Positions 2,572 to 60,722 of a stretch of DNA of 64,000 nt are shown here, in pieces; position 1 is the stretch's first letter, and each line of letters starts with the position of its first letter. The notes below the pieces were generated by a model that saw only the letters and a program-made list of their open reading frames with translations, was not told the DNA's origin and ran no database searches. Position numbers and translations under genes: made by a program. This DNA is from Chondrosia reniformis (Eukaryota; Porifera; Demospongiae; Chondrillida; Chondrillidae): positions 3,658,001-3,722,000 of the forward strand of contig OX359190.1 of the NCBI GenBank assembly GCA_947172415.1. The letters are read 5' to 3'.

Positions 2572-2951
2572 TCAGTGTGACATCAATTGGAATTAATTGT
2601 TTACTTAAAAAAACACAAACACATTTCATGTTTAATAATTTTCTTAATTTTTGAATAACCTGTACTGTTATCCTTTAGTTTTCCATTGTAAAGTTGTAGA
2701 AACACTTATTTACTATTACTTCTGCAATGCTAAAGTGATTTCACTCTATTTTGTAAGCTCTGAAAACATTTACAGTAGCCAATATTCAATTTGAATCAAC
2801 AGCTATATCTTTTTTATATTGAGATGGATTGATAAAAAGGTTATGTAGTTTTATAGGGAATGAGTTACCTTATTGAAATATAACTGCCGTCTATTTGTAT
2901 TAAAAGTTAACCTATAGTTGAAATATAAAATCGAAAAATGGAGGTTTTCGC
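2572..2951. other. Non-coding AT-rich stretch
   Basis: Nothing recognisable. It lies between the transposase relic and the MITE at 2961. Confidence 0.5.
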
Positions 2952-2960
2952 TTTTGAATG

Positions 2961-3407
2961 TAGTCTGGAAAGCCAGATATTACCTCCACTTCGCGTTGAA
3001 AGTAAGGGCTGGTCTAACTCGTATTCAAGTTTTGCGCAAGAATCTGATTTTCTGGCTCTTTCAAACAGATTGCTGAACGCGCGTAAAGCTCAATGATGAC
3101 GTATAACTCTTTGCGTTACGTACATTACATAAAATACGTATATAGTTCTTTTAATAATTATGTCTGCTACACAGCAGTTAAAGTTTTGCAAACTCTGCAG
3201 CAAGATAGTTAAGGTTAAATTTGGAAGATCCTCAGCGAATCAGTTAAAAGAAGCTTTAAAACTGACAAGATTTAAGTCGGTCATTTACGGCAGTCACTCA
3301 GTTAATTAGTATGCGTAAATCCACCCACTATGCACAGAACTTGAATACGAGATAGACCAGACTTACTTTCAACGCGAAGTGGATGTAAGGTCTGGCTCGG
3401 CAGACTA
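2961..3407. mobile_element. MITE with about 69-bp terminal inverted repeats
   Basis: Bases 2961-3029, starting TAGTCTGG, are repeated in reverse complement at 3340-3407. The shared core includes CCACTTCGCGTTGAAAGTAA and ends in CTCGTATTCAAG, with a handful of mismatches. The 447-bp element has no coding potential. The 9 bases before it (2952-2960) and after it (3408-3416) agree at 7 of 9 positions, suggesting a 9-bp target-site duplication. Long TIRs plus a 9-bp duplication are typical of Mutator-like (MULE) elements; that assignment is inference. Confidence 0.7.
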
Positions 3408-4270: not shown

Positions 4271-4436
4271 TAATTCATTCCTCATATTTTACTTGATAAC
4301 TTTACTACTAAACATTTATTACTATTTCCTTCATGGTTAACTATTAGTGAAAGTTTTTTATAAAAATTTAATAACAAATTAAACATGTAAACGAAAGTAG
4401 TAAAGTTATTAAGAGAAAACTTGTTTGTAACATTTG

Positions 4437-5354
4437 CTAAGCTAGGAATTTTCTTCTCAGCCCCTTACGGACCTGAGCAAGGGCCTCTTGAGTTTTTACC
4501 CAAGCCTTTTCAAAGTGCTGAGGCTGACTCCAAAACCAAGGGAAAGTTTTGAAAATGGACTTTTTTAAGTCATTCAATTCTTTCTGAGGCAAAGCTGGGC
4601 AATCTTTCCATCCCTTAGGGGTGCACTGCCTTAGGACCTCATCCCCAAAAAAGACTTCTCTTGCCAGCTTAATGGCTGGGGGAGTCATCTTACCCTCACT
4701 TTGAAGGGCAGGGTGAACTGAGGGTGCCAAGCACAGGAGAAGAAATATCCATAGCCACTGGTTGAAAACAACTGGTATTCAGTGTTACTGCTGAATCTTC
4801 TATGAGTCCATTCTTTAACATTTGTTCATCAAGTTTGTTCTCCAAATTATCAATTTTGCCTTCTTAATATACAAGTCTGCTGTTCATGGCTTCTAGGATC
4901 CGTGTAATGTCCTTAAGAGACTCAAGCAAGTGTTTCTGATAGTCAGGTGGTTCAGCCAAGTCTTGCTGTGATATCTTTTCAAAAATATTTTCCTTTTGCA
5001 GGAATTCATCTAAGTCACTTGGTGCTAGTTTGTCCATGGATAACTGTCCCCTACGTTTTGAAACACACAGGATGTTTCCTGTTTGTTCCTCCCCTTTGCT
5101 TTTCTTGTTGTTGGCCTTAACATGCTTTAGCTTTTTTTTCTTCTAATGGTTTCAGGAGCTTGATTCAAGTCCGCTAGTGGTAGGCGTTCAGCTTCTCCTG
5201 ATTCCTTTTCTTCTTCTTTCTTCTTGGCTTTTTCTGACCCACATTTTTCACTTATATATTTGGAGCTTGCCCCCAGGACTTGGGCAGGGAAATCGAAAAT
5301 TCCAAATAGGTTATTTTCTGGTCTGATCCTTGATGTTATAAAGCAGCGAACCAA
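4437..5354 (-). pseudogene. BEN-domain-like protein, broken
   Basis: On the minus strand, the frame ending at 4437 (97 residues) reads KLAREVFFGDEVLRQCTPKG...PALPQKELNDLKKSIF and then an aromatic-rich PWFWSQPQHF helix. This resembles a BEN domain: hydrophobic helix, 'F..e.L...tp.G', then 'L...k...i'. Upstream on the same strand, 5354-5127 encodes LFGIFDFPAQVLGASSKYIS followed by a Lys/Glu-rich stretch, the kind of linker found N-terminal to such domains. The 4730-5127 interval between them is interrupted by stops in every frame, so the gene is broken or has introns I cannot place. It starts about 190 bp from, and points away from, the integrase gene. BEN proteins bind DNA or chromatin. The call is tentative. 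Confidence 0.4.
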
Positions 5355-12702: not shown

Positions 12703-13027
12703 TTAGGTGAAAAGGTCACTGAAGGTGGAATGGCATGAATTAAGAAGTCTAGAAATGAATGTAACTTGGATAGTTAGGTTGGATGCTCTCCAGCCTAATG
12801 AAGTGGCAATTGAATGGCTACAAGTAAGTAGACCAATTGAACACCAGGCACATACATTACAGAGTATAACAGCTGTTCCATTGAGCATTTTTGAGGATAG
12901 GCATGATCTTGAACCAATAGCCTTTCCAACTTTTTGATGTGATGGTGAAAATAACTTAGACACAATCAGAGAAACCTAGGTTACACCACTACAGTATTGC
13001 CATGCGAGAGTACTCAGTACTGACACA
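12703..13027 (+). pseudogene. Partial array unit: Helitron N-terminal region
   Basis: The frame 12707-12937 gives DALQPNEVAIEWLQ, then HTLQSITAVPLSIFEDRHDL and PIAFPTF, then a TGA. The next codons continue as NNLDTIRETxVTPLQYCHARVLSTDT. This text precedes the Rep-type domain of Helitron proteins in invertebrates ('I.vAP.Eg..P.si..D.d.e..aFP'). It matches the 3' end of each downstream unit, so at least one more unit once lay to the left. This copy lacks the palindrome seen in units B and C, and so preserves the older sequence. Confidence 0.55.
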
Positions 13028-13424
13028 ATGTGGGTGTGTCATCCTTCATATACATTTTGGGCCTCCAATATTGTGGAAGCATTGAGGTTGCAGAGTAGCA
13101 TTTCCATCGCTATGAGAATGTGATCAATCAGAGCAAGTCACTTTGATGTTTAACTAAATCTGGGAACATTTAACAACAATGATATTTCCAGCCTGCCTGC
13201 ATAAGCTGCAAGTTGATTGATGTTCAAAGTGAAAAACAAAGCACGGAAACTGAAACAAAGAGGTCTTGAAGACCATCTATGCTGTCAACATGCCAAAGAG
13301 CGTGTCTAGAAACTGAAATACAGGAAGAATATTCCGCACAACTAGGAAAAATGGCTGAAAACAAAGACTGTAACTGCAGTTTGAAACAGAAGAACAACGT
13401 TCTGTTAGATTGCATAAATATTCT

Positions 13425-13600
13425 GGAAATCAAAGGAAGCCCTTAAATTCGGAAGGGGCTGTTGCAAAACTTCCTTAAAATCAAAGGAAATGCTTAAATT
13501 AGGAAAGTGCTGAGCAATGTGAGGCCAGAGTTGGAAAACTTTCTTAAAATCAAGGGAAGTGCTCTAAATCAGAAAGTCGTGAGAAATAAGACGGTAAGTC
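13425..13600 (+). repeat. Minisatellite, about 66-bp period, coding-like (unit A)
   Basis: Two to three copies of a unit that, in one frame, reads close to RKVLSNVRPELQNFLKIKGS. The same repeat occurs at 19612-19760, 22090-22330 and 24760-25045 with different copy numbers. Each copy contains AAAATCAAAGGAAG and TGTGAGGCCAGAGTTGC words. Confidence 0.6.
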
Positions 13601-13687
13601 TCGATTGGCTATAATGTTGATGTCATCGACTTTTGTGAATTTTTTTATATAGCATGTAGAATAAATTAAATCTCTTTTCATATATAG

Positions 13688-13831
13688 GAAGAGGAACTTA
13701 CCGATTACAAAGAAGAACTCCAACCCCCACCAAAACCCCAATCCTCCCCAAAACCACAACACCCACTAGAACCCCAACCCCTACCCGAACCCAAAAATGA
13801 AAACCCTAACCTAGCCCCATCCCCAGTCTAA
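13688..13831 (+). CDS. Proline-rich exon (unit A)
   Basis: After an ATATAG acceptor, a 47-residue frame starts EEELTDYKEELQPPPKPQ, continues with P-x-P repeats, and ends in NPNLAPSPV with TAA at 13829-13831. Units B (19874-20017) and C (22429-22572) have exactly the same 144-bp length and frame, ending in TGA. Function unknown. Whether these exons are still expressed is unknown. Confidence 0.4.
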   Translation, partial: EEELTDYKEELQPPPKPQSSPKPQHPLEPQPLPEPKNENPNLAPSPV

Positions 13832-14173
13832 AGAGAGGTCTATAGACAAGTAGGAAGAAAGGGAATTTTTCTGATAATGTATTATAAATGTTATGTCATT
13901 TTCTCTGTGTATATAGCTGCCAATTCTATAATTTCGGCTTACTAAAGGATAGCCAAAATTGCAGAGTAGGAAAAGGTTCACCCAAAGGAGGGAGTGACCG
14001 GAGTCGTGGCCCTAAGAGTGGTATGCTTGGGAGGAGGGGGCCGTATCCACGTAATGTGAGTTTATACATTTCATTTATAGATTAACCAGAACCAACGATT
14101 GTTTTTTCTCTTCTGCAGACATACAATAACGTATTTAACACTGGATCAAAGACAACTTTAGTTCACAAGGAAC

Positions 14174-14893
14174 TTGCCATCCTTGTTAAAGGGGGCAGGC
14201 ATCACTGAAAATGTGAGAGAAAGATTGGTAAGACGAGACTTTTCCAGTTCGGTCATTGAGCCAGTCCAAGAGTTGCTGTTAGAAGCCCTGGAGTCATGCC
14301 TGTTCCCACTGGATGGGATGGTAATCCTAAAGGAAAGGGCTGCAGCCAATCTGTTCAGCTTTCTGGTGGATGAGAATATAGGCCAGTTGATCCAACATGC
14401 AGCTGAAAATACACAACAAAATGTAAATGACATCTTAAATACCCTAATAAAAGAGATTTAGGAAACAATGAGGAAGGCCTATATAAGGATTGTTAACAGC
14501 TGCACGAATGACAACCAGGGGAACAAGCCATGCCCTCTGACCTTGCCTCTGTTAGGGCTGCAGAAAGCCACATTCACCAAAGGCATGCACATTTACCTTG
14601 ACCAGTGTGTGCAATTCTACCGGGCATGGGACAGTAGCCATGCCCTTAACCAATTGTCACCTACAGTTTCAGTAGCAAACAATGTGGTACTGCTGGTTAG
14701 TGGGAGGCAGGACCTATATAGGAGGCTAGTCATCAAGGTGGGGTTGATCAGGGGAGTGGACGCCCTAATCACCAATGGACAGGTCCTTTTAGGATTTAGG
14801 AACTCGATATTTCCTCTACCACCAGCAATACCTGGACCGGGAGAAAAGTGGTCCAATATGTCAAAAATTACAGGGAGGATGGCAGAGGTTTAA
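14174..14893 (+). pseudogene. Two-part unknown frame of unit A (95 aa, stop, 141 aa)
   Basis: The frame 14174-14461 encodes a mostly helical 95-residue segment (RERLVRRDFSSSVIEPVQEL ... NVNDILNTLIKEI). It ends with TAG and resumes in the same frame as MRKAYIRIVNSCTNDNQGN. Compared with unit B, this copy jumps from NQLSP directly to TVSVANNVVLLVSG, missing about 290 bp that encode WPKVSHNQ...CVHLGV. I do not recognise a family. Upstream, the exon beginning after CTGCAG at 14119 reads TYNNVFNTGSKTTLVHKELA in a different frame from the 95-residue segment. Confidence 0.4.
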
Positions 14894-15235
14894 TGATTTG
14901 ATGGTGAAAATGTCATTGTAGGTGGAAACGCCATACATGGAAAAATCTAGAAATGGATGAAATTGGGATTGTCATGTTGGATGCTCTCCAGCCTAATGTA
15001 GTGGCAATTGAATTGCTACAAGGAAGTAGACCAATTGCACTCCAGGCACATACATTACAGAGTAAAACAGCTGTTCCATTGAGGATAGGCGTGATCTTGA
15101 GCCAATAGCCTTTCCAACTGCATATCCTGATGGTGATAATGACTTTGACACAATCAGAGAGACCAAGGTTACACCACTACAGTATTTCCATGTGAGAGTA
15201 CTGAGTGCTGACACAATATGCACAGGCGCCATATG

Positions 15236-16262
15236 ACTGATCTGCTTGTTGTTACGTTTTTTTCATAAACACTTTTAAGAGCAAGTTTCGTTTTAACAGA
15301 AACGATTTGCTACCTTAAACTGATATACATCGAAGTGCTTATTTAAATGTCAGCAAAGTCTAAATTTGAGCGAGATTGAACAACCAATATCGAAGATATA
15401 AAGTGTTAAAAAGGGCTGATTTTAAAACTCTCAGACACTATGCGCTTAGTCTAGGAAAAAGTTAGAACTACGTTCTATACTTCATTGAAAAGGTTACAAT
15501 GTATTCTAACAAATTCTAACAAAATTAACAAGTCTGCTTCGATTCGCCCATCCGTTGAGAAGAAAACTGTGAAAATACACTTTTAATAGATTAGTAAATG
15601 CTATTTAATCTTTCATATCTTGGAAAATAAAGCTCAGACGCCAACGGACTTCTTAATTCTAACTAAATGGCACTCACTGAATCCAGTGAAGCTGACTACA
15701 CGACTTTGAGGTTCTAACTTAAGCGCATAGTCTTCACTTCTGCAATAGCCATTTCTCCACATTTAAATCATATTCATTAGCAAATAAATATATTCATGGT
15801 ATGATTTACACATTTGAAACACAAACGGTGAAATTTTATAGCCAGATGTTAATATTGCGCAAATCCTAAGTTGTGTAACTGGGATATTATATACATGTAT
15901 ACTATATGTTGACGCAGTGATTGAGGATCGCTGTAAGGTGTTATTCACACTAAGGATCGCTAATTTTCGAATTTTCGTCTAAAGTAGAGAAGATTATGCC
16001 CCCCCTCGCAAAAAAGCCAAGAGGGATATCAGTTGATAACCAGGTTGCTCTGAAGTTCAACTACAGCTTTGCAAGAGTTGCTGCATACGAACTATTCGTT
16101 AACAAAAGGGACATAAAAAATAAGTAGTCGACAATAGCTAGAGAAGTGAATCATGTTGTAGCTACTATGCAAAGAGCCCCTGAAAAGCCGTTTTCACACT
16201 TATATTAGATATTAATTGTATAATACAATACGTATGAAGTGAGCCGATTTTATAATAGACAT
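15236..16262. other. Spacer splitting the array; short frame and weak inverted repeat
   Basis: Mostly AT-rich. A motif near 15440 (ACTATGCGCTTA...GTTAGAAC) recurs in inverted form at about 15709-15740, so a small MITE of about 300 bp may be present. A 43-codon frame with ATG at 15996 (MPPLAKKPRGISVDNQVALK...) ends in TAG at 16125-16127, and the text after the stop (STIAREVNHVVATMQRAPE) still looks coding. It may be a transposase N-terminal scrap; not identified. Confidence 0.35.
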
Positions 16263-16500
16263 AGAAATATTAAAAATTTTCTACAAAAATAGTGAAGATG
16301 TTGGGATGGCAAAAAAAGTAAGGAAACAAGAAAGGGATGTTGCATAGTGAAGCATTAGCTATGCATGAATCATACAACACCCTTGCTTGTAGGATTCATG
16401 CATAGCTAATGCTTCCCTGTGTAACACCCCTTCCTTGATTCCCCACTTTTTTTACCATCCCTACATCTTCACTATTTTGTAGAAAAGTTTTAATATTTCT
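16263..16500. mobile_element. Palindromic MITE, copy 1
   Basis: Bases 16263-16378 and 16390-16500 form a long imperfect inverted repeat: AGAAATATTAAAAATTTTCT at one end, AGTTTTAATATTTCT at the other, with GAAGCATTAGCTATGCATGA and its complement near the centre. Related copies are at 32639-32797 and 41381-41622. All three lie next to the repeat containing 'GCGTTATCGCTCTCGCTTCT', so palindrome and neighbour may be one composite element. Confidence 0.7.
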
Positions 16501-16551
16501 AGTTTCTGTACTTTTTATGGAGCATGGGCTAGGAATTAGATTCGTATAAAT

Positions 16552-16790
16552 AAAACTATTTTGGTTTCACAATCTTCGACTGAATATGACGTCATTAAAA
16601 TGGCGACTTTATTGAGGCCTTTAGTCTAGGGCCATGAAAACCGTCATGTTCAATAATAGCGTTATCGCTCTCGCTTCTACAAAAGAATACAGCTCGGAAA
16701 TTTGCAGTAGTTTTGTTTAACAATTAGTCCAAAAGCCCTATAGTTTTCTAGTTATGGCTAACGAAGAAGAAGAAGAAGAAGTGCAACCTA
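16552..16790 (-). repeat. Dispersed repeat (family M), partial
   Basis: The stretch with GACTGAATATGACGTCATTA, GAGGCCTTTAGTC and GCGTTATCGCTCTCGCTTCT recurs at 33320-33590 and 43590-43955, and in inverted orientation at 40935-41385 and 55988-56390. It probably represents a MITE of about 450 bp whose far end is the GAGAGTACGGTAGTACTCTC motif. Confidence 0.6.
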
Positions 16791-18035
16791 ACACAGAACA
16801 CAGAGAGACTACCATAATTAATCTTGTAAATGGCATGATTAATAGTCCTGCTGCTGGTACTAGAAAAGCATTACAGGTGCTTAACACTAGTGTAGCCTCT
16901 TCCACAGGAAAGAGCTTCAATACACTGGTTGACCTACACGACAAAAAACTAAGTTTAAGGAAATCCGCCAAAGAAAAATTGCAAAACAATATTGAATTGC
17001 TAAGCATAATAAGAGATAATGCTAATAGTTTCTATAAACAAAATGCAGCCTTGACTATGTTAGCAGAAAATGAATCAAAAGTGCATACAACAGAAAAAGA
17101 AAGGCTTTGTACTTTCAGGAAAATGTATGTGACACACCAAAAAGGAAAAAGTTACATTTAAAGGGATGAGTTGCTGAAACCGTCCTCCAAAAACTAACTA
17201 CAGCTATTGAAGAAGAAAGGACTATTCAATGGAAGTCGTTTGCTTCAGAATGTGGGCTGAACAGTTCAGATTCTGGTGTAAGAGTCAAAATATTTGCCAT
17301 TGCAAATGGTTTGGATATAACTAAACTAGAAGGGGAAACAAAATCCACTGAAACAAAGAGGCCTAGGAGAATATTACCAAAGATGCCTGGTAGTCACAGC
17401 AGAATTTCATCACCCTGCCCTCCTATATAGCTTAGATGAGGTCAATAAAGACATAGCAAAAATGTTAGTAGAAGGTCAGTTGAATGTTGGGTAACCGTGT
17501 GCACCAATGTCCTTAGAAAGGTACATGCCAGATGGCAATATACAAATAGTCCAGGCTCATGGGAATAAAATTCCATTAACAGAGCTACACCAGAAACTAT
17601 TGGACTAACATAGTAAATATATGAGATTAACAACTGATGAGCAAATTACAAAAATGTCTCTCACCTCTCTTAGATCAGAAGTTAGCAAATACATTAGTAA
17701 TTGTGAATCCCTTTCTAGACCTGAAATAGAACATGCATTCAAAGAAAGAAACACCTAATAATGTGGCATGACCATTCTACTTTACTCTCCTATGGTCTCT
17801 TACTGATAACAGTTAAAACTGCATATGATCCAGCAGTAGTTCCTGATAAAAAGGGAAGCTTTCAATTCAGGAAATAGTTGAAAAAAACTGAAATTCACCT
17901 TGTTGGTTTTTCAACTTCTAGTCACAACTCACAAGCTGATTTAATCTCCGACAGGTTAGATTGCTTATCAGAGATTAGTGAGAAAGTAAAAACGTCTAAT
18001 GGAATTGAGATCACTGCATTAGCTTTCTTTTAGAC
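16754..18035 (+). pseudogene. Unknown invertebrate transposon-associated protein, decayed
   Basis: ATG at 16754 opens a 135-codon frame (NEEEEEEVQPNTEHRETTII..., then a helical part with RKSAKEKLQNNIELLSIIRD) ending in TAA at about 17161. Coding text continues with stops and shifts: SLERYMPDGNIQIVQAHGNK (about 17510), RLTTDEQITKMSLTSLRSEV (about 17627), SNCESLSRPEIEHAFKERN, MWHDHSTLLSYGLLLITVKT (about 17760), then TEIHLVGFSTSSHNSQADLI. The MWHDH and 'eihll...s...dq..li.dR..cl' blocks recall a long uncharacterised protein found in many cnidarian, sponge and echinoderm genomes in repeat contexts. I know no function for it. The first codons lie inside the upstream dispersed repeat. Confidence 0.5.
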
Positions 18036-18134
18036 ATACATTATAATAAATATTTCATGTGTTAATTATGGCTGTATTCATAGCCAGTTAATGCATGCTT
18101 AGGTGATGAAACATCATCAGTTTAAGCTAATCTG

Positions 18135-18251
18135 ATTGGTTCATGAAGTCAAAACTTCATTGGCTAACACAATTTTCATGGTATCCTACCCAAATTATTA
18201 ATCTGATTGGATAACTTATTTTCCAAGGTATCCTCCTAGCAAGTATAAATA
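18135..18251 (+). promoter_or_regulatory. Core promoter: three inverted CCAAT boxes and a TATA box
   Basis: ATTGG occurs at 18135-18139, 18159-18163 and 18206-18210, and TATAAATA at 18244-18251. The next ATG, at 18319, opens a 146-codon frame 68 bp beyond the TATA box. Spacing and order are those of an RNA polymerase II core promoter. No experimental support is available. Confidence 0.5.
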
Positions 18252-18318
18252 TAGATGACTAAAGACAGAAATCATATATATTGAATAGAAAACAGCTAAA
18301 GAAAGAAGACTTTAAATA

Positions 18319-18759
18319 ATGGAAAATGGATACTACCAGTCAACATCAAGAAGATTCCCATCAAGAAGTTACAGAAAGCCTTATAAATGGCACAATCAGC
18401 AGCAATACTTAAAGAGAAAATATAGAATAAACCAAAGATTTAATGACTGGGGAGTAAATTCTTTGATTAGAATGCAGGTGGAAGAAGAAGTAAGCAGAAT
18501 AGATGGCAGAAGGCTGAAGAGGAGAAGAAAAAAGAGAAGAAGAGAGGCAAAAAGAAGAAATAAAAAAAGGATAGAAGAAGACGTGCGGAGTAGGCTAGTA
18601 GAGGAGACACGAAAAGAAAAGGAAGAGAAGATACGAATGGAGCAGATAGAGGAGGAAGAGAAGGAAACAAAACAAAAAGAAAAGGAAGAACAGGAGAATC
18701 GGCCTCAACTATTGAAAACACTAATTAAGGAAGTCCTCAGAGAAATGAATGACAGATAG
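18319..18759 (+). CDS. Highly charged coiled-coil protein, unknown
   Basis: An uninterrupted 146-codon frame from an ATG to TAG. Residues 1-50 are rich in Ser, Tyr, Arg and Gln (MENGYYQSTSRRFPSRSYRK at the start). Residues 50-125 are almost all Arg, Lys and Glu in a long helical, probably coiled-coil segment. The end, PQLLKTLIKEVLREMNDR, is an amphipathic helix. The bipartite basic clusters could direct it to the nucleus. No domain is recognisable. It sits in the block that splits the tandem array and has its own CCAAT/TATA promoter. It could be an accessory ORF of a mobile element or a small host gene. Low complexity makes chance openness possible, but promoter, ATG and stop agree. Confidence 0.45.
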   Translation: MENGYYQSTSRRFPSRSYRKPYKWHNQQQYLKRKYRINQRFNDWGVNSLIRMQVEEEVSRIDGRRLKRRRKKRRREAKRRNKKRIEEDVRSRLVEETRKEKEEKIRMEQIEEEEKETKQKEKEEQENRPQLLKTLIKEVLREMNDR

Positions 18760-19203
18760 GAATTATACTACTAACTTTAAAACAACAACATAAAAATTGT
18801 CCAGAATGCCTTTAATAGAATACACACAGACAATATGAAGGAACAGAATATACATTTCCTAAAGGTATTTACTAGAAGAAATATAAACAAACGGCATGAA
18901 CTACAACTATGAAGCCCTTAAAACAACAGAGTGTCAAAGTAAGAGCGAACTCACCGATTGAAGGGCTAAATTCTTCACTGGCTGGCGAGGCTTCTTCTTA
19001 GCGAGGCTTCGATTGGTCACACACCACGTGTTTGAGATTGCATATCTGGTAAGGCTTGGTTAGGGTTTTGATTTCCTCCGGTGTGTAACCGATAACACTA
19101 AAAAGACGCATTCACTCTTAACAATTGAAAACTAAAATTCTTTATTAATTAGCGCTTGTTATGTGTTGATGGCTATAAGGCAGCCTATCCCTAAGGAACA
19201 GCC
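18760..19203. other. Non-coding spacer before unit B
   Basis: No gene recognised. It includes a slightly GC-richer piece at 18940-19080 with repeated CGAGGCTTC words. Confidence 0.4.
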
Positions 19204-19611
19204 ATAAGGTACCAGTGTGGGCATGTCATCCTTCATATATCTTTTGGGCCTATAACTTTGTGGAAGCATTAAGGTTGCAGAGCAGCATTTCCATCGCTAT
19301 GAGAATGCCATCCATCAGAGCAAGTCACTTTGATGTGGAACTAAATCTGGGAACATTTCACAACAATGATATTTCCAGCCTGCCTACATAAGCTGCAAGT
19401 TGATTGATGATCAAAGTGAAAAACAAAGCACGGAAACTGAAACAAAGAGGTCTTGAAGACCATCCATGCTGTCAACATGCCAAAGAACGTGTCTAGAAAC
19501 TGAAATACAGGAAGAATATTCCGCACAGCTAGGAAAAATGGCTGAAAACAAAGACTGTACCTGCAGTGTGAAACAGAAGAACAACGTTCTGTTAGATTGC
19601 ATAAATATTCT

Positions 19612-19760
19612 GAAAATCAAAAGAAGCCCTTAAATTCGGAAGGGCCTGTTGCAAAACTTCCTTAAAATCAAAGGAAGTGCATAAATTAGGAAAGTGCTGA
19701 GCAATGTGAAGCCAGATTGCAATACTTTCTAATAATCAAAGAAAGCGCTCCAAATCGGAA
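19612..19760 (+). repeat. Minisatellite (unit B)
   Basis: About two copies of the coding-like 66-bp repeat described for unit A. Confidence 0.5.
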
Positions 19761-19873
19761 AGTGCTGAGAAACAATATGGTAGGTCTCGAGTGGCTATAA
19801 TGTTGATGTCAGTGACTTTTGTGAATTTTTTTATATTTCCTGTAAAATAAATTAAATCTCTTTTCATATTTAG

Positions 19874-20017
19874 GAAAAGAAACTTACTGATTACAAAGAA
19901 GAATTCCAACCCCCACCAAAACGCCAATCCTCCCCAAAACCCCAACACCCACTAGAACCCCAACCCCTACCCGAACCCAAAAATGAAAACCCTAACCTAG
20001 CCCCAACCCCAGTCTGA
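19874..20017 (+). CDS. Proline-rich exon (unit B)
   Basis: Begins EKKLTDYKEEFQPPPKRQ after a TTTAG acceptor and ends NPNLAPTPV with TGA at 20015-20017. Length and frame are identical to units A and C. Function unknown. Confidence 0.4.
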   Translation, partial: EKKLTDYKEEFQPPPKRQSSPKPQHPLEPQPLPEPKNENPNLAPTPV

Positions 20018-20359
20018 AGAGAGGTCTAGAGACAAGTAGGAAGAAAGGGAATATTTCTGAAAATGTACTGTAAATGTTATGTCATTTTCTCTGTGTATAT
20101 AACTGCCAATTCTGTAATTTCAGCTTACTAAAGGATAGCCAAAATTGCAGAGTAGGAAAGGCTCCACCCAAAGGAGAGAGTGACCGGAGTCGTGGCCCTA
20201 AGAGTGGTATGCTAGGGAGGAGGGGGCCGTATCCACGTAATGTGAGTTTATGCATTTCATTTATAGATTAGCCAAAACCGACAATTGTTTTTTCTCTTCT
20301 GCAGACATACAATAACGTATTTAACACTGGATCAAAGACAACTTTAGTTCACAAGGAAC

Positions 20360-21304
20360 TTGCCATCCTGGTTAAAGGGGACAGGCATCACGGAAAATGT
20401 GAGAGAAAGATTGGTAAGACGAGACTTTTCCAGTTCGGTCATTGAGCCAGTCCAAGAGTTGCTGTTAGAAGCCCTGGAGTCATGCCGGTTCCCACTGGAT
20501 GGGATGGTAATCCTAAAGGAAAGGGCTGCAGCCAATCTGTTCAGCTTTCTGGTGGATGAGAATATAGGCCAGTTGATCGAACATGCAGCTGAAAATACAC
20601 AACAAAATGTCAATGACATCTTAAATACCCTACTAAAAGAGATTTAGGAAACAATGAGGAGGGCCTATATAAGGATTGTTAACAGTTGCACGAATGACAA
20701 CCAGGGGAACCAGCCATGCCCTCTGGCCTTGCCTCTGTTGGGGCTGCAGAAAGCCACATTCACCAATGGCACACACATTTACATTGACCAGTGTGTGCAA
20801 TTCTACCAGGCATGGGACAGTAGCGATGCCCTTAATCAATTGTCACCTGCAAGGACCAGGATACCATGGCCTAAGGTTTCCCACAACCAGCGGAAACTCT
20901 TTAGGGTCAGCAGTCACATTTGTGCAATTACTTATGTGGACAGAGATGGAGGACTTCTGACCATAGAGCACATCAACGGGTTGAGGGAATACCTTCAGGC
21001 TAGCCATATCCCCCAGGTCTACGAGGTGGAATTCAGAGAAGTTGGCCATGATGCACACAAGCTGACTCACAGCTTTAGCATCAGGGGTTCAGCTTGTGTT
21101 CATTTAGGTGTGGAGGAATCCGGCAACCAAGGGCCAACGTTTCAGCAGCAAACAATGTGGTACTGCTGGTCAGGAACCCTATGGGATGCTAGTCAGCAAG
21201 GTGGGGTTGATCAGGAGAGTGGACCCCTTGATCACCAATGGTCAGGTCCTTTTAAGACAGGGCTCTCGATGTTGCCTCCCCCACCAGCAATAGCTGGACC
21301 GTGA
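20360..21304 (+). pseudogene. Two-part unknown frame of unit B (95 aa, TAG, 216 aa)
   Basis: The longest version of the unknown protein. The 95-residue part (20360-20647) is followed by TAG GAA ACA ATG and then 216 residues in the same frame (20654-21304). The second part has ARTRIPWPKVSHNQRKLFRV, ITYVDRDGGLLTIEHINGLR and VYEVEFREVGHDAHKLTHSF, with alternating hydrophobic strands suggesting a folded alpha/beta domain. The end is Gly/Pro/Trp-rich. The same TAG sits between the parts in units A and C. I recognise no family. Readthrough, reinitiation at the ATG six bases past the TAG, or pseudogenisation before the array expanded are all possible. Confidence 0.45.
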
Positions 21305-21357
21305 GAAAAGTGGTGTCAGAAATTACAGAGAGGATGGCAGAGGTTAACTGATTTGAT

Positions 21358-21900
21358 AGTGAAAAAGTCATTGTAGGTGGAAACGCCCTAGATGAAGAAA
21401 ATCTAGAAATGGATGAAACTGGGATTGTCATATTGGATGCTCTCAGCCTAATGTAATGGTAATTAAATTGCTACAAGTAAGTAGACCGATTGAACACCAG
21501 GTACATACATTACAGAGTATAACAGCTGTATGGAACAGCTGTTATACTCTGTAATGTATGTACCTTAGGATAGGTATGATCTTGAACCAAAAGCCTTTCC
21601 AACTTTACATCGTGTTGGTGAAAATAACTTTGACACAAATAGAGAAACCAAGGTTACACCACTACAGTATTTCCATGCAAGAGTACTGAGTGATGAGACA
21701 ATATGGGCATGTCATCCTTCATATACTTTTCGGGCCTGCAACATTGTGGAAGCATTGAGGTTGCAGAGCAGCATTTCCATCGCTATGAGAATGCGATCAA
21801 TCAGAGCAAGTCACTTTGATGTTGAACTAAATCTGGGAACATTTCACAACAATGATATTTCCAGCCTGCCTACATAAGCTGCAAGTTGATTGATGATCAA
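21358..21900 (+). pseudogene. Helitron N-terminal region across the unit B/C junction
   Basis: Reading EKVIVGGNAL...DALSLM, then (after the palindrome) FDTNRETKVTPLQYFHARVL, then ACHPSYTFRACNIVEALRLQ, SSISIAMRMRSIRASHFDVE and LNLGTFHNNDISSLPT, this is the text that leads into the Helitron_like_N (Rep) domain. The related copy at 33790-34290 continues into the Rep domain proper. Here it ends at a TAA and changes to the unit-specific exon. No HUH motif or helicase is present in the array. Confidence 0.6.
21500..21564. repeat. Perfect 30-bp-arm hairpin (unit B)
   Basis: Bases 21500-21529 and 21535-21564 are perfect reverse complements around a 5-base loop ATGGA. In the partial unit at 12845 and in unit A, only the left arm exists and ordinary coding-like sequence follows it. 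The right arm is therefore an inverted copy that replaced a few bases of the Helitron frame. Confidence 0.85.
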
Positions 21901-22089
21901 AGTGAAAAACAAAGCACGGAAATTGAAACAAAGAGGTCTTGAAGACCATCCATGCTGTCAACATGCCAAAGAACGTGTTTAGAAACTGAAATACAGGAAG
22001 AATATTTCGCACAGCTAGGAAAAATGGCTGAAAACAAAGACTGTACCTGCAGTGTGAAACAGAAGAACAACATTCTGTTAGATTGCATA

Positions 22090-22330
22090 AATATTCTGAA
22101 AATCAAAGGAAGCCCTTAAATTCGGAAGGGGCTGTTGCAAAACTTCCTGAAAATCAAAGGAAGTGCTTAAATTATGAAACTGCTGAGCAATGTGAGGCCA
22201 GAGTTGCAAAGCTTTCTTAAAATCAAAGGAAGCGCTTAAAATCGGAAAGTTCTGAGAAATGTGAGGCCAGAATTGCAATACTTCCTAATAATCAAAGAAA
22301 GCGCTCCAAATCGGAAAGTGCTGAGAAACA
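22090..22330 (+). repeat. Minisatellite (unit C)
   Basis: Three to four copies of the 66-bp-type repeat, the largest number among the full units. Conceptual translation repeats NVRPELQ..FLKIKGSA.NRKVL. Confidence 0.6.
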
Positions 22331-22428
22331 ATATTGTAGGTCTCGATTGGCTATAATGTTGATGTGAGTGACTTTTGTGAATTTTTTATATAACCTGTAG
22401 AATAAATTAAATCTCTTTTCATATTTAG

Positions 22429-22572
22429 GAAGAGAAACTTACCGATTACAAAGAAGAACTCCAACCCCCACCAAAACCCCAATCCTCCCCAAAACCACAA
22501 CACCCACTAGAACCCCAACCCCTACCCGAACCCAAAAATGAAAACCCTAACCTAGCCCCAACCCCAGTCTGA
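22429..22572 (+). CDS. Proline-rich exon (unit C)
   Basis: Acceptor ATATTTAG, frame beginning EEKLTDYKEELQPPPKPQ, TGA at 22570-22572; 144 bp as in A and B. Confidence 0.4.
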   Translation, partial: EEKLTDYKEELQPPPKPQSSPKPQHPLEPQPLPEPKNENPNLAPTPV

Positions 22573-22914
22573 GGAGAGGTCTAGAGACAAGTAGGAAGAA
22601 AGGGAATTTTTCTGAAAATGTACTGTAAATGTTATGTCATTTTCTCTGTGTATATAGCTGCCAATTCTATAATTTCGGCTTACTAAAGGATAGCCAAAAT
22701 TGCAGAGTAGGAAAGGCTCCACCCAAAGGAGGGAGTGACCAGAGTCGTGGCCCTAAGAGTGGTATGCTTGGGAGGAGGGGGCCGTATCCACGTAATGTGA
22801 GTTTATACATTTCATTTATAGATTAACCAGAACCAACGATTGTTTTTTCTCTTCTGCAGACATACAATAACGTATTTAACACTGGATCAAAGACAACTTT
22901 AGTTCACAAGGAAC

Positions 22915-23574
22915 TTGCCATCCTTGTTAAAGGGGGCAGGCATCACTGAAAATGTGAGAGAAAGATTAGTAAGACGAGACTTTTCCAGTTCGGTCATTGA
23001 ACCAGTCCAAGAGTTGCTGTTAGAAGCCCTGGAGTCATGCCTGTTCTCACTGGATGGGATGGTAATCCTAAAGGAAAGGGCTGCAGCCAATCTGTTCAGC
23101 TTTCTGGTGGATGAGAATATAGGCCAGTTGATCCAACATGCAGCTGAAAATACACAACAAAATGTCAATGACATCTAAAATACCCCACTAAAAGAGATTT
23201 AGGAAACAATGAGGAGGGCCTATATAAGGATTGTTAACAGCTGCACGAATGACAACCAGGGGAACCAGCCATGCCCTCTGACCTTGCCTCTGTTGGGGCT
23301 GCAGAAAGCCACATTCACCAATGGCACGCACATTTACATTGACCAGTGTGTGCAATTCTACCGGGCATGGGACAGTAGCGATGCCCTTAATCAATTGTCA
23401 CCTGCAAGGACCAGGATACCATGGCCTAAGGTTTCCCACAACCAGTGGAAACTCTTTAGGGTCAGCAGTCACATTTGTGCAATTACTTATGTGGACAGAG
23501 ATGGAGGACTTCTGACCATAGAGCACATCAACAGGTTGAGGGAATACCTTCAGGCTAACCATATCCCCCCATGA
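22915..23574 (+). pseudogene. Two-part unknown frame of unit C
   Basis: Close copy of the unit B frames: 22915-23178 (ending early by a one-base loss) and 23209-23574, the latter stopping at TGA after QANHIPP where unit B continues VYEVEFREVG. Downstream codons to about 23900 still match unit B in shifted frames. No family recognised. Confidence 0.4.
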
Positions 23575-24064
23575 CTCCCAGGTGGAATTCAGATAAGTTG
23601 GCCATGATGCACACAAGCTGACTCACAGCTTTAGCATCAGGGGTTCAGCTCGTGTTCATTTAGGTGTGGAGGCCTCCGGCAACCAAGGGCCAACGTTTCA
23701 GCAGCAAACAATGTGGTACTGCTGGTTAGTAGGAGGCAGGACCCCTATGGTAGGCTAGTCAGCAAGGTGGGGTTGATCAGGGGAGTGGACCCCTGATCAC
23801 CAATGGTCAGGTCCTTTTAAGACAGGGCTCTCGATGTTGCCTCCCCCACCAGCAATAGCTGGACCGTGAGAAAAGTGGTGTCAGAAATTACAGAGAGGAT
23901 GGCAGAGGTTTACTGATTTGATAGTGAAAAAGTCATTGTAGGTGGAAACGCCCTACATGAAGAAAATCTAGAAATGGATGAAACTGGGATTGTCATATTG
24001 GATGCTCTCAGCCTAATGTAGTGGCAATTAAATTGCTACAAGGAAGTAGACCAATTGAACACCA

Positions 24065-24129
24065 GGTACATACATTATAGAGTATAACAGCTGTATGGAA
24101 CAACTGTTATACTCTGGAATGTATGTACC
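24065..24129. repeat. Hairpin (unit C)
   Basis: The same inverted duplication as at 21500-21564, with three arm mismatches accumulated since: 24065-24094 against 24100-24129. Confidence 0.8.
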
Positions 24130-24257
24130 TTAGGATAGGCGTGATCCTGAAGGAATAGCCTTTCCAACTGCATTTCCTGATGGTGAAAATAACTTTGACA
24201 CAATCAGAGAGACCAAGGTTACACCACTAAAGTATTTCCATTCGAGAGTACTGAGGA

Positions 24258-25580
24258 CTGGGCATGTCATCCTTCTAGAGTTATGCAAGCACTGCAATGG
24301 CTAACGCATCAAAACACCTTGTTTAGCGATGTCTCCATCAGCAACATGTCAGTAGGTACGTTCATTAAAGGAGAAAAGGTCACTGAAAGTGGAAATGACA
24401 TACATGAAGAAATCTAGAAATGAATGAAACTGGGATTATCAGGTTGGTTGCTTTCCAGAATGCGATCAATCAGAGCAAGTCACTTTGATGTTGAACTAAA
24501 TCTGGGACCATATCACAACAATGATATTTCCAGCCTTCCTTCATAAGCTGCAAGTTGATTGATGATCAAGTGAAAAACAAAGTATAGAAAGTGAAACAAA
24601 GAGGTCTTCAAGACTGTTCATGCTGTCAACATGCCCAAGAACGTGTCTAGAAACTGAAATAGAGGAAGAATATTCCGCATGGCTAGCAAAAATAGCTGAA
24701 AACAAAGACTGTACCTACAGTGTGAAACAGAAGAACAATGTTCTGTTAAATTGCCTAAATATTCTTCCAATCGAAGGAAACCTTTAAATTCGGAAGGTGC
24801 TTAGCAACGAGAGGCCAGAGTTGCAAAAGTATCTGAAAATCAAATGAATCACATAAATTGGGAAAGTGCTGAGCAAAATGAGGCCAGAGTTGCAAAGATT
24901 CCTAAGGAAGCGCTTAAAAGTCTCTGAAAATCAAAGGAAGCCCTTAAATCCGGAAAGTTCTGAGCAATGTGAGGCCAGAGTTGCGAATCTTTCTTAAAAT
25001 GAAAGGAAGCACTCAAAATCGGAATGTGCTGAGAAACATGATGGTTAGTCTCGGCTGGCTATACTGTTCATTTTAGCGAATTTAGTGAATTTTTTATATA
25101 GCATGTAGAATAAATTAAATCTCTTTTCATATATAGGAAGAGGAACTTACCAATTACAAAGAACTCCAATCCAAAAACAACCACAACCCCCACCACAACC
25201 CCAACCCCCACCTGAACACCACCTTCAAAACCCTAACCTAGCCCTAACCCCAGACTGAAAGAGAGGCCTAGAGGCTGGACATGTAGCAAGAAAAGGAATA
25301 TTTCTGATAATGTACTCTAAATTTTATGTCATTTTCTCTGTATATATAGCAGCTAATTCTACAATTTTGGCTTACTAAAGGAATGGCGAAATTGCAGAAT
25401 AGGAAAGGTTCCAGGGAGGAGTGGCCGCAGGCGTGGCCCTAAGGGTGGTAGGCTTGGGAACAGGGGGCCGTATCCATGTAATGTGAGTTTATAGATTTCA
25501 TTTATAAATTAACTCGACACTTTTTTTTCTCTACTGCAGGCATACAATAACGTATTTAACGCTGGATCAAAGATAACGTT
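24258..25580 (+). repeat. Truncated array unit D
   Basis: Begins with a Helitron piece not seen in the other units (VMQALQWLTHQNTLFSDVSI, like the 'ALqWLk.nN..y.di.in' start of Helitron/PIF1-type proteins). It then jumps by deletion to RMRSIRASHFDVELNLGPYH. It continues through the Cys-containing exon (24600-24785), the minisatellite (24760-25045), a degenerate proline-rich exon (25137-25250) and the Arg/Gly exon (25340-25480), and breaks off in the exon after CTGCAG, at about 25580. More diverged than A-C. Confidence 0.7.
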
Positions 25581-26150
25581 TAATTAGTTTTTGTTAATTA
25601 AGTGTATTTAGGTTATAATGAATTAGGTACTCCATTGTCATGCATGTTTTGTGGCGATATGTTTGAATTAAATTCAATAGAATTCAATAATTTTATTTAG
25701 GCTGGAAAATCCTGTTTGTAAGGATCGGAAGTAAATCAGCTTCACACAAGTCTTTTAAGTGAATCTGAACTGAGCATATAAACAAAAAGACTTCAGTTTA
25801 ACAGAGACTTTCTGTCTGTGTCTGAATCCGTTAGAATTCATTTTAACAGAGGCACTCTGCAAGTATCGAAACTGTCAATGTTTCAATCAGTAAAATAAGT
25901 TTAAGCTTAAAGTTTAGACATTTTATGTGATTAAAGATCCATTTGCAGCCATTACATAAACAGATCAAGAAAGGAAACGTTCCAGAACCCGTGACACCGT
26001 TCAGTGTGTGATCTATTCCATTCCTGTAGAATAGTGTTTACATGGTAAATGAGGTTATTGAATAAACAGAGTGGCACGTCTAGGATATTTTCTATAATCG
26101 CATAGACTAATGTACATTACTGTTCATTTCATGTTGTCAAGTCAATTAAA
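25581..26150. repeat. Array flank with dispersed repeat
   Basis: No gene. Bases 25740-25880 resemble 11865-12010 on the other side of the array. The rest is AT-rich. Confidence 0.4.
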
Positions 26151-50985: not shown

Positions 50986-51880
50986 ATGCATATGTATCTG
51001 TACATATTTGTGTATTAAATACTACAGCTACAGCCAAGTTGTGTTACATGACAAAGCTGTCTTGAAAGAGCCTTCAGCAGTTTATTCTAAAACTGATGAT
51101 TGCAGTTGTCCTAAAGTGTTTACTTCACCTAGCGAAGGCAAAATATTGTGTATAGTCTGATAAAACTATAAAATTCGAATTGTTTGACAATGCATCTTCA
51201 CCCTGAGATTTAAATATAAATGTATAGATCTCCCATGAAGTTACAAAGTAAAAGGTATAATAGCATGACCTAACCAATTGATGCTGCACCACCACACACG
51301 CTGCCCACCTGATAACAATGGGTGGGGTCAAGAGGGTTCATCAACAACATCTACCTTTTTGATACCCCTATATGTCAAAGTATATAGAAAAAGGGAACAG
51401 CAAGTACATGAGCAAGAGATTGTAAGAAAGTGATTCACACAATCAAGATACTGGTTGGACACTTAACAAGCATTTCCTTGCAAACATCATTGTCAACTGC
51501 CCTTTTAACTTGATCTCCTATATTGTGTTATAGGGCCATACAGATAATTTGTGAAATCTTAATGTATATATTGGATAATCTAGGTATTGACAACCTTAGT
51601 CCAATTTAGAATTTGACCCTTTCATACACTCAGACACGTGATGTACTGTATATTTTGTACTAATAATATAGGACATGTGTAGTTGAGATAGTAAGAGTAT
51701 ACATAGTCAATAAATGGCTATATAGTGACAAAAGGTGGGTGATTCTGTTAATATTGCTAACAGTATTTTTAGGGGCTGATTTGCCGATTACGTTGTATGG
51801 CTTCATGTTACGGAAAGATATATATATATAATACGGGTTCATACGCAACTATTATAACACTTATTTTATACGTCGATATA
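50986..51880. other. Non-coding flank of the pogo element
   Basis: No gene. The last 45 bp (51835-51880) match the start of the right flank of the pogo element (55533-55580), so the element lies next to a family R piece on each side. Confidence 0.45.
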
Positions 51881-52507
51881 GGGCGTGGCTTCTATTTTCG
51901 GACACCATTAATAATCGGACACCTGATCTCAGCCGTTCATTAATCGATTGTCGTCATTCTTGGCACGTCACACGAGTACACTAAGATTACTAGCCCTGCC
52001 AAGTTTGAACTAGATCTGCGCTTCCTTAACAGAGTTACAGTAGAAATATCGAAGTGTCTGGAAATATATATTTTCGGACAGATAGCATGTATTTTCGGAC
52101 AGCGAAGCGTACGTCGCAAGGCGCAGGTATTTGCTAACTCTTTCTACATTGCCGAATGGGTACAGACTTGTGCTAATTAGGACTAAAATTTCAAAAGAAA
52201 ACTCTCTTCCACGAAGGAGCTAGGGAACTTTTAATATGGGTGGTCGGGGTCACGAATTTTCGGACACTAATTTAATAACTTCCGTTGTGAAATTTTGAAT
52301 TTGCTACTTATTTGCGACCTAGAAATCGAAGACCGGTGCATAACTTTACCTTTTATCTGTTTTAGAGGACCTACCACGCATCTTAAAGGTATGCCAAAGA
52401 CATTCCATAATTGCATTTGTAAACATAGGGACTAATTGTCTGAGCTACATATTTGTGGCTTCTTGCTAAACAAACTAATTGATAACTCATTGAACAGCAC
52501 AACACAA

Positions 52508-55142: not shown

Positions 55143-55532
55143 AGTGTCCGAAAATTCGTGACCCCGACCACCCATATTTAAAGTTCCCTAGCTCCTTCGT
55201 GGAAGAGAGTTTTCTTTTGAAATTTTAGTCCTAATTAGCACAAGTCTGTACCCATTCGGCAATGTAGAAAGAGTTAGCAAATACCTGCGCCTTGCGACGT
55301 ACGCTTCGCTGTCCGAAAATACATGCTATCTGTCCGAAAATATATATTTCCAGACACTTCGATATTTCTACTGTAACTCTGTTAAGGAAGCGCAGATCTA
55401 GTTCAAACTTGGCAGGGCTAGTAATCTTAGTGTACTCGTGTGACGTGCCAAGAATGACGACAATCGATTAATGAACGGCTGAGATCAGGTGTCCGATTAT
55501 TAATGGTGTCCGAAAATAGAAGCCACGCCCTA

Positions 55533-55810
55533 TGTATAATACGAGTTCATACGTAACTATTGTTACACTTAATTTATACGTCAATACATCGTTTTTGCAA
55601 ATGGCGGCGTTCAGGAAGCTTTAGTTAACGAAGCTTTTCCATCGTTATTTATAAAGTTTAAGACACTTAAGCGTCCTCAATCGTTAGTATTACGAATATA
55701 TATATTAAATCCCAACGATGCGGCCAAGTAGTTCGAGTTAATTCGGGGGGCGGCAGCCCCACGAGTTTTTAAACTCGAAATACTAGTTTGAAGTTTGCTT
55801 ACTCGGAGTG
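55533..55810 (-). repeat. Dispersed repeat (family R), copy 3
   Basis: Homologous in inverted sense to 49245-49465 and 32339-32560. It ends with CCAAGTAGTTCGAGTTAATT and a GGGGGGCGGCAGCCCC hairpin. Confidence 0.6.
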
Positions 55811-57014: not shown

Positions 57015-57398
57015 ATACAAGTAAATAAAAAACATTTACAAAAATGATGTTAGAAGTAGTAATGGCAGTGTTCACTAATACATCTGCAAAAAGTATCGAA
57101 ACAAGACACTGATTATATGATAAGGCTAATCATACAGAAGTTGCATATATACTGAAATTTAAGTAACTTAACCATACACTTCTGTGTTTGGGCGCACTAA
57201 CCTTAAGTAGGAATGGTGCGCCCAAACACAGAAGTGTATGGTTAAGTTACTTAAATTTCAGTATATATTCAACTTCTGTATGATTAGCCTTATCATATAA
57301 TCAGTGTCTTGTTTCGATACTTTTTGCAGATGTATTAGTGAACACTGCCATTACTACTTCTAACATCATTTTTGTAAATGTTTTTTATTTACTTGTAT
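57015..57398. mobile_element. Near-perfect foldback with 183-bp arms
   Basis: 57015-57197 and 57216-57398 are reverse complements with a single mismatch that I can find (near 57147/57267), around an 18-base loop. Ends are ATACAAGTAAATAAAAAAC. No coding content. It could be a young foldback MITE. Confidence 0.85.
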
Positions 57399-59665: not shown

Positions 59666-60431
59666 CCTTGGCTGTCTATGCTAAATCTAGGGACCTTATA
59701 TACACTATTTTGACACTATGTTTAACAAAATGTACTATGCAGCTATGCAGCTTTATTAATGTTACAGTGACAACTGCTGATGGAACTGCTGCTGGTAAGG
59801 TTTTAGACACATGCACATACATGTCACAGATTGTTAGCTTGTATATATATACCATAAAGTAGGAAAGTTAATGGCTTTGTATACATATATATTCACATAA
59901 AAGCTCTTTGGAATCTATAGTTTTGCAGTGTAATCTTCGAGGATTACCAGCCTAATACTCTTCAATTTATGATTAAGTATGCAAATATTACGATACAATT
60001 TACATGCACATCCTTAAAAAGAGTGAAAATTTATTCCCCTAGAAAATTCCTGCTAAGTATTTTGGTATATACTTTATTTTAAACACTAAAAACTATATAT
60101 ATGTGTGTGATTATCTGACTACATGCAATAGAATACAATTTACATATTTACCTACCAAAGCATGCATGCAGTCATCAGTGATGTCACCAGTTACTGTTTC
60201 AGTAATAGTTTCTTCAACAATATTTCTTACAGTATCAAGGACCCCATACTCCTTGACACATTTTGTAGCATATCTCATTCTTCTATCTCTGCTTCCATCA
60301 ACAGCTACAATCCTTCAATAATAATTACATAATACATAGAAACAACTGTTTAATACACATATACACACAAGATTAATGTTTTTAAGAGATCTACAATATG
60401 ACATAATTATACGTACATACGTATGTAAGAT

Positions 60432-60722
60432 ATATGAAGTTTATGGAGCAACAGCAACATTAAATCTTTGGAATAGAACGTTTCAACCCATAGGTCTTCA
60501 TCAGCAATATGAAAAAATTAGGAAAGGTTGGTGTTTAAACATCCTCATTAAATATTTGGTGCACAATTTCATTACATCATTTTTCACACCTGCCAAACAA
60601 CTTCCATTTAAACACCAACCTTTCCTCATTTTTTCATATTGCTGATGAAGACCTACGGGTTGAAACGTTCTATTCCCAAGATTTAATGTTGCTGTTGCTC
60701 AATAAACTTCATATATCATCAT
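60432..60722. mobile_element. Foldback element in an intron
   Basis: 60432-60543 (ATATGAAGTTTATGGAGCAA ... GGTTGGTGTTTAAA) and 60608-60722 are long near reverse complements around a 65-bp centre. It contains CTGATGAAGACCTACGGGTT, a word type common in animal repeats. Located between exons of the DNase I-like gene. Confidence 0.75.

Follow-up and report, generated by a model that had tools for sequence, protein, structure and literature searches.

A decayed tandem array of Helitron and gene-fragment pieces in the sponge Chondrosia reniformis, and a putative 2A leader in its source Helitrons

Helitron-related satellite DNAs of the Pacific oyster consist of tandem monomers with partial similarity to the transposon, and their authors suggest tandemisation of a transposon segment plus nearby sequence (PMC8268682). 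A similar arrangement of monomers occurs in the genome of the sponge Chondrosia reniformis (117,379,552 bases in 15 contigs; contigs and loci carry our own C and L numbers), within a window of 64,000 bp that spans C2:3658001-3722000 and was analysed as a whole. Unlike the oyster satellites, which are found genome-wide (PMC8268682), the sponge array comprises about three 2.5 kb units at one locus plus a related locus; its Helitron parts are internal to an open reading frame (ORF), and no Helitron end is seen in it, the ends themselves being unmapped. The array is real yet of an unremarkable sort: scraps of transposon and gene combined in a chimera that stands in local tandem copies and has decayed. 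We consider it highly probable that a chimeric, non-coding unit arose by illegitimate joining, was then duplicated head to tail at the locus, and subsequently decayed.

A second point of comparison concerns the Helitrons that supplied part of the unit. StopGo (2A) sequences are described as frequent in RNA viruses but uncommon in cellular genes (PMC12846837), and the 2A-like sequences at the N-termini of sea urchin NLRs have a predicted or demonstrated role as signal sequences (PMC4981915). It is likely that the array traces to Helitrons making Rep/helicase behind a 2A leader, in which a hydrophobic stretch and D(V/I)ExNPGP, with putative skipping, are followed by STPR-DUF6570-Rep-PIF1. As in the NLRs described in PMC4981915, D(V/I)ExNPGP stands close to the N-terminus, ahead of the main protein, and the hydrophobic stretch preceding it invites comparison with the signal sequences of those proteins; unlike theirs, the sponge motif, with putative recoding and signal activity, sits in a Helitron Rep/helicase ORF. 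This leader, more than the array, is the part worth following.

The array (window 12706-25660) contains units A, B, and C with truncated ends, all head to tail on one strand. A preliminary description of the window had proposed such an arrangement, and self-BLAST agrees: between 12706 and 25585 the copies are collinear and on the same strand, with 88.6% identity between 12707-14665 and 21359-23406, 93.9% between 13026-14665 and 19213-20851, 92.1% between 19218-21720 and 21704-24275, and 80.9% between 21788-22904 and 24457-25585. Aligned identities are 92.3% (A/B), 95.8% (B/C), and 93.9% (A/C), with D at 85-87% to the others. A and B, earlier taken as neighbours, are separated by a 3997-bp insertion (15221-19217) with TG on either side, which splits one unit copy; when its flanks are joined by script they align to the uninterrupted unit C, and the array was continuous before the insertion arrived. 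A terminal inverted repeat in the insertion does not rise above shuffles (score 32; shuffles mean 23.2, maximum 39), and therefore no superfamily is given. Unit D is truncated, as described, and lacks the two-part frame of the other units, and its right side continues to ~25660 into a flank homologous to locus L043.

Two of the four parts of the unit come from a Helitron with STPR, DUF6570, Helitron_like_N, and PIF1 domains (Pfam), of which the array retains only the STPR piece and the piece preceding Helitron_like_N (pre-N), in swapped order. In a genome search with unit C (21705-24275, unit positions 1-2571; 72 matches, best 40 of 103 candidates scored), positions 114-615 correspond to the N-terminal part of Helitrons that carries the STPRs, and positions 2214-2571, continuing into 1-116, correspond to the text immediately ahead of Helitron_like_N. 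The counterparts in L039 (C4) lie at 2660-3180 (STPR part) and 4342-4790 (pre-N part), the order being opposite to that of the array; DUF6570, Helitron_like_N, and PIF1 share one frame there and the STPRs occupy another, and in L021 (C1) the STPRs and DUF6570 are in one frame. Because the 'Cys exon' and 66-bp minisatellite of the preliminary description match the STPR region of L039 and L021, both are, judged by these matches, a decayed and frameshifted Helitron protein with STPR repeats; the frame at 22032-22220 scores 22 bits against PF21107 (STPRs), below the cut-off of 27. A repeat is indeed present: Tandem Repeats Finder (score 50 or more) reports one at 22134-22328, of period 69 and 2.8 copies, and in no unit other than C. 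It is the Helitron STPR repeat and not a separate element.

The text read previously as a Helitron N-terminus is Helitron-homologous, matching loci of Helitrons with Helitron_like_N (among the best 150 of 326 genome matches to array protein pieces), but it precedes that domain and does not contain it. None of the 133 genome matches to Helitron_like_N (PF14214; best 150 of 153 candidates scored) falls inside the window, no PIF1 match was found in the six array frames scanned with Pfam, and the PIF1 part of L039 has no DNA match in unit C. The array is Helitron-derived by homology to a Helitron ORF; with neither Helitron_like_N (Rep) nor PIF1, it is not an autonomous Helitron.

The remaining two parts have separate sources, and the 'multi-exon gene' of the preliminary description does not hold together as one gene: its Cys exon and minisatellite are parts of the Helitron ORF, its Pro-rich and Arg/Gly exons (unit positions ~629-1196) match a dispersed, intron-bearing repeat, and its two-part frame alone is a separate low-copy gene fragment (~1201-2198). 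The dispersed repeat has 20 matches, four in the array and 16 at eight other loci on C1, C2, C3, C5, and C10. Among the matches listed, long common stretches are ~80-94% alike between loci and ~73-94% alike with L043; an alignment of seven 3′ parts, in which a test for hairpins or end motifs was not included, has no obvious common terminus. The low-copy gene has 13 matches: three in the array, four at the related locus (C2:3980 kb), one in L041, two in a broken copy on C5, and three distant (34-35%). L041 carries an open copy of 366 amino acids (L041 1307-2404; C2:3537806-3538903), and the other long matches, unlike it, carry stops. That this fragment has no recognised family was borne out by Pfam: window 20348-20647 and 20648-21304 match no family at E up to 1, 14462-14893 has a single match far below its cut-off, L041:1307-2404 matches none at E up to 0.5, and the scanned proteins of the low-copy gene (including the three distant relatives) and of the dispersed repeat match none above cut-off. 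A search of solved structures with L041:1307-2404 gave a best E of 0.97, and an AlphaFold2 model of the unit-B frame, with TAG read as E, was uninformative (mean pLDDT 39.8) and is not used.

The gene block has decayed in the array. Copies A, B, and C have one TAG in common, and the ratio of nonsynonymous to synonymous substitution (dN/dS; our own Nei-Gojobori script, which omits stop codons and codons with gaps) against the open copy L041 is 0.63 for A, 0.81 for B, and 0.70 for C, with 0.83 for L040. Against the older copy L042, all five comparisons give 0.34-0.40 (A, B, and C 0.36-0.37). By these ratios the gene was formerly constrained, and its array copies look relaxed, though not cleanly neutral. 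The octapeptide corresponding to the 2A motif has also changed, to DV*LNLGT in A, DVELNLGT in B and C, and DVELNLGP in D.

Four junctions join these parts: J1 (Helitron pre-N to 2A, with a 3-nt GAT common to both sides), J2 (STPR to repeat, with a 2-nt gap assigned to neither source), J3 (repeat exon to gene, 0-2 nt shared), and J4 (gene to Helitron, with the breakpoint unplaced within ~10 nt). Short queries spanning each were searched against the whole genome, only the best candidates being scored. Besides A, B, C, and D (query 19-101), J1 is spanned at C2:3986068; the remaining 35 of its 40 matches are one-sided, and the unit C search found a further diverged copy at C2:3981876. J2 is spanned only in A-D (the other four of eight matches are one-sided), and J3 only in A, B, and C (the other five of eight are one-sided, D included); J4 is spanned in A-C and at C2:3981493, with the other two of six one-sided. 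The source sequences continue past the join at J1-J3, and the gene side of J4 rests on one copy, L042. We considered J3 as the terminus of an element and rejected this because both sources extend past it. Satellite DNA has high copy number and long arrays, and the sponge array does not qualify as such: J2 is spanned at four places and J3 at three genome-wide.

We propose that two Helitron ORF pieces in swapped order, the dispersed repeat, and the low-copy gene were fused by illegitimate joining, with non-homologous repair or template switching making the first joins. Since J1 and J4 are common to L040, 300 kb away, a precursor composed of gene fragment, pre-N, and 2A/STPR probably came first; at the array locus it would then have been joined to the dispersed repeat at J2. 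The stretch from gene fragment to repeat exon would next have been duplicated head to tail on chromosome 2 with J3 as the breakpoint, unequal crossing-over would have changed the copy number, and the copies later gained stops, deletions, and the 4-kb insertion. The last copy, D, has no J3 and continues into a normal flank homologous to L043, the outcome expected of a tandem duplication that broke at J3, and since J3 recurs between copies and D passes into this flank, the natural monomer is the stretch from gene fragment to repeat exons. We infer the repair or template switching, the unequal crossing-over, and the lack of function from these patterns.

Several points weigh against this proposal. 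Head-to-tail copies, a recurrent breakpoint, and the original flank after the last copy are all present, but the left flank is missing, and tandem duplication is evident from one side only; copy 0 starts inside Helitron text, and the left edge that the monomer first had is absent. We read the higher divergence of D (85-87%) as that of an unhomogenised edge copy, but it could reflect separate origins, and further junction copies could have been missed in searches that score only the best candidates. Values of dN/dS between L040 and A, B, and C (0.54-0.65) and among A, B, and C (0.46-0.74), all from few substitutions, would allow weak constraint.

Three other explanations have been considered beside illegitimate joining and local duplication. 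The preliminary description pointed to rolling-circle formation, in which a Helitron captured gene fragments and made a tandem array of truncated copies. Helitrons are abundant in this genome (133 PF14214 matches), three Helitron_like_N matches are exactly 11,965 bp apart on C5, and rolling-circle arrays of truncated Helitrons have been proposed in the literature (PMC8268682), yet we regard this origin as unlikely. It is unsupported because the junctions are internal to the sources and the Helitron pieces internal to the ORF: no unit border was found at a Helitron terminus (the Helitron ends themselves being unmapped), the pieces in unit C correspond to L039 2660-3180 and 4342-4790 in swapped order, and D runs out into the dispersed repeat's normal continuation and not into Helitron text.

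A real, expressed tandem cluster of a chimeric multi-exon gene would account for exon-like pieces that keep splice-like borders (such as CTGCAG before TYNNVFNTGS) and for a J1 that is in frame in unit C. It is nonetheless very improbable: A-C have a gene-block stop in common, B and C carry frameshifting indels, A has suffered a large deletion, a 4-kb insertion interrupts one copy, and the 2A proline is lost in A-D. We give slightly less credence still to a false duplication introduced in assembly; repeats of this kind are prone to mis-joining, but the assembly is reported as PacBio HiFi at ~70x with a quality value (QV) of 69.8 (PMC12181767), A-C differ by 4-8%, one copy has a private 4-kb insertion, and J1 and J4 recur 300 kb away.

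In the source Helitrons, the J1 breakpoint coincides with a canonical 2A motif, DVELNPGP, and 13 of the 16 loci examined of this subfamily read exactly so, with NLGP in L024 and L032 and DVKLNPGP in L034. A hydrophobic stretch (LACVLSLLLLLAG or near) precedes the motif in 15 of the 16, L028 differing; L034 has a stop just before the 2A motif and L032 one before the hydrophobic stretch. The motif D(V/I)ExNPGP is in frame within an ORF: L021 has an open frame from before the 2A through the STPRs and DUF6570, and four Helitrons, with 2A at C1:5089806, C1:4486537, C4:3326414, and C5:3600949 upstream of Helitron_like_N, have an equal open-frame length for the 2A region and Helitron_like_N (2523, 2312, 2510, and 2555 amino acids, respectively), the distances between the two being multiples of three (computed by hand).

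Genome-wide, the pattern D(V/I/M)ExNPGP occurs at 126 places, compared with one for the reversed pattern. Among the 100 sites listed of these 126, 51 precede a Helitron_like_N match by 1.5-5 kb on the same strand, the 51 matches being all distinct, with none equally far downstream of a match and none on the opposite strand within about that distance; random shifts of 20-400 kb (1000 trials, all 133 Helitron_like_N matches used) gave a mean of 0.72 upstream pairings and a maximum of four. On C1-C9, an exact 2A is upstream of 54 of all 93 Helitron_like_N matches, and of 31 of the 46 longer than 500 bp, leaving 15 without. The codons and the free residue vary between subfamilies, with DVELNPGP, DVEVNPGP, and DIESNPGP among the 37 places for which letters were given (matched at 38-54%). 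We note that a LINE-like (long interspersed nuclear element) frame, recognised by eye inside a related Helitron locus (L040 5764-6042; C2:3983 kb), carries a near-2A NVEVNPGQ, LLLLAGNVEVNPGQ; Pfam found no match for the frame, and its 2A is possibly a relative or source of the Helitron 2A.

Two sites elsewhere bear on Helitron arrays. The Helitron_like_N matches at C5:4589442, 4601407, and 4613372 score equally, and 2A sites recur there with the same 11,965-bp spacing; the three are perhaps a tandem array of whole Helitrons; if so, this trio is a better site for the study of rolling-circle arrays. Very similar Helitron 5′ regions at C6:4212680 (L025) and C6:4223505 (L024) share a strand, are 10,825 bp from each other, and form a possible tandem pair.

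Table 1. Parts of the array and their window coordinates
Feature	Position	Strand	Basis
Copy 0, left-truncated: Helitron segment just before Helitron_like_N	12706..13145	+	Self-comparison, genome matches
J1, first copy: Helitron text jumps back to 2A codons; octapeptide DV*LNLGT	13145..13147	+	Breakpoint as mapped in unit C
Helitron 2A/STPR N-terminal segment (formerly 'Cys exon' and minisatellite)	13147..13589	+	Self-comparison, genome matches
Dispersed intron-bearing repeat piece: Pro-rich, Arg/Gly, TYNNVFNTGS exons	13590..14159	+	Genome matches
Low-copy gene fragment, copy A: stop and ~290 bp internal deletion at 14665/14666	14160..14893	+	Alignment
Helitron pre-N segment of copy 1, cut by insertion	14903..15220	+	Self-comparison
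Later insertion, 3997 bp, TG both sides	15221..19217	.	Flank-joining script
Helitron pre-N segment of copy 1, remainder	19218..19334	+	Self-comparison
2A/STPR segment, octapeptide DVELNLGT (NPGP lost)	19332..19775	+	Genome matches
Dispersed-repeat exons	19776..20345	+	Genome matches
Low-copy gene fragment, copy B: stop 20645-20647, frameshifting indels	20346..21343	+	Alignment
Helitron pre-N segment ending at J1; GAT 21818-21820 common to both sources	21353..21820	+	Junction mapping
2A/STPR segment, octapeptide DVELNLGT, tandem repeat 22134-22328	21818..22330	+	Tandem Repeats Finder, junction mapping
J2, STPR to dispersed repeat; 2 nt assigned to neither side	22331..22332	+	Spanned only in copies A-D
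Dispersed-repeat exons	22333..22900	+	Genome matches
J3, inferred amplification breakpoint: repeat exon / middle of low-copy gene	22900..22901	+	Spanned only in A, B, C
Low-copy gene fragment, copy C: stops, frameshifting indel	22901..23907	+	Alignment
Helitron pre-N segment	23918..24275	+	Self-comparison
Rearranged Helitron text before D (RVMQALQW... stretch)	24276..24456	+	Read by eye against L039
Copy D: J1 (DVELNLGP at 24487), 2A/STPR, J2, dispersed-repeat exons; no J3	24457..25585	+	Spanning queries
Right flank of D, homologous to normal continuation in L043	25586..25660	+	Comparison with L043

Elsewhere in the window are two palindromes, at 57015-57398 (384 bp, 96.9%) and 60429-60717 (~290 bp, 82%), and an inverted pair at 51878-52268 and 55143-55533 (391 bp, 99.7% identity) with ~2.9 kb between its members, which may mark where a young transposon ends.

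The array is a worked example of the fusion and duplication of transposon debris and gene scraps, and it cautions that exon-like parts within such an array may stem from several sources and not from one gene. For the source Helitrons, we found no description of a Helitron-borne 2A leader in the open-access papers searched, and the word 'Helitron' is absent from the main text of the 2A papers PMC12846837 and PMC4981915; as far as open-access searches go, a conserved 2A leader in the replication protein of a DNA transposon would be a new setting for StopGo. If the leader is active, translation would split it from the transposase, and failed skipping could route the transposase to membranes, a dual targeting of a DNA transposon enzyme. 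Such a leader would make the control of Helitron protein production directly testable.

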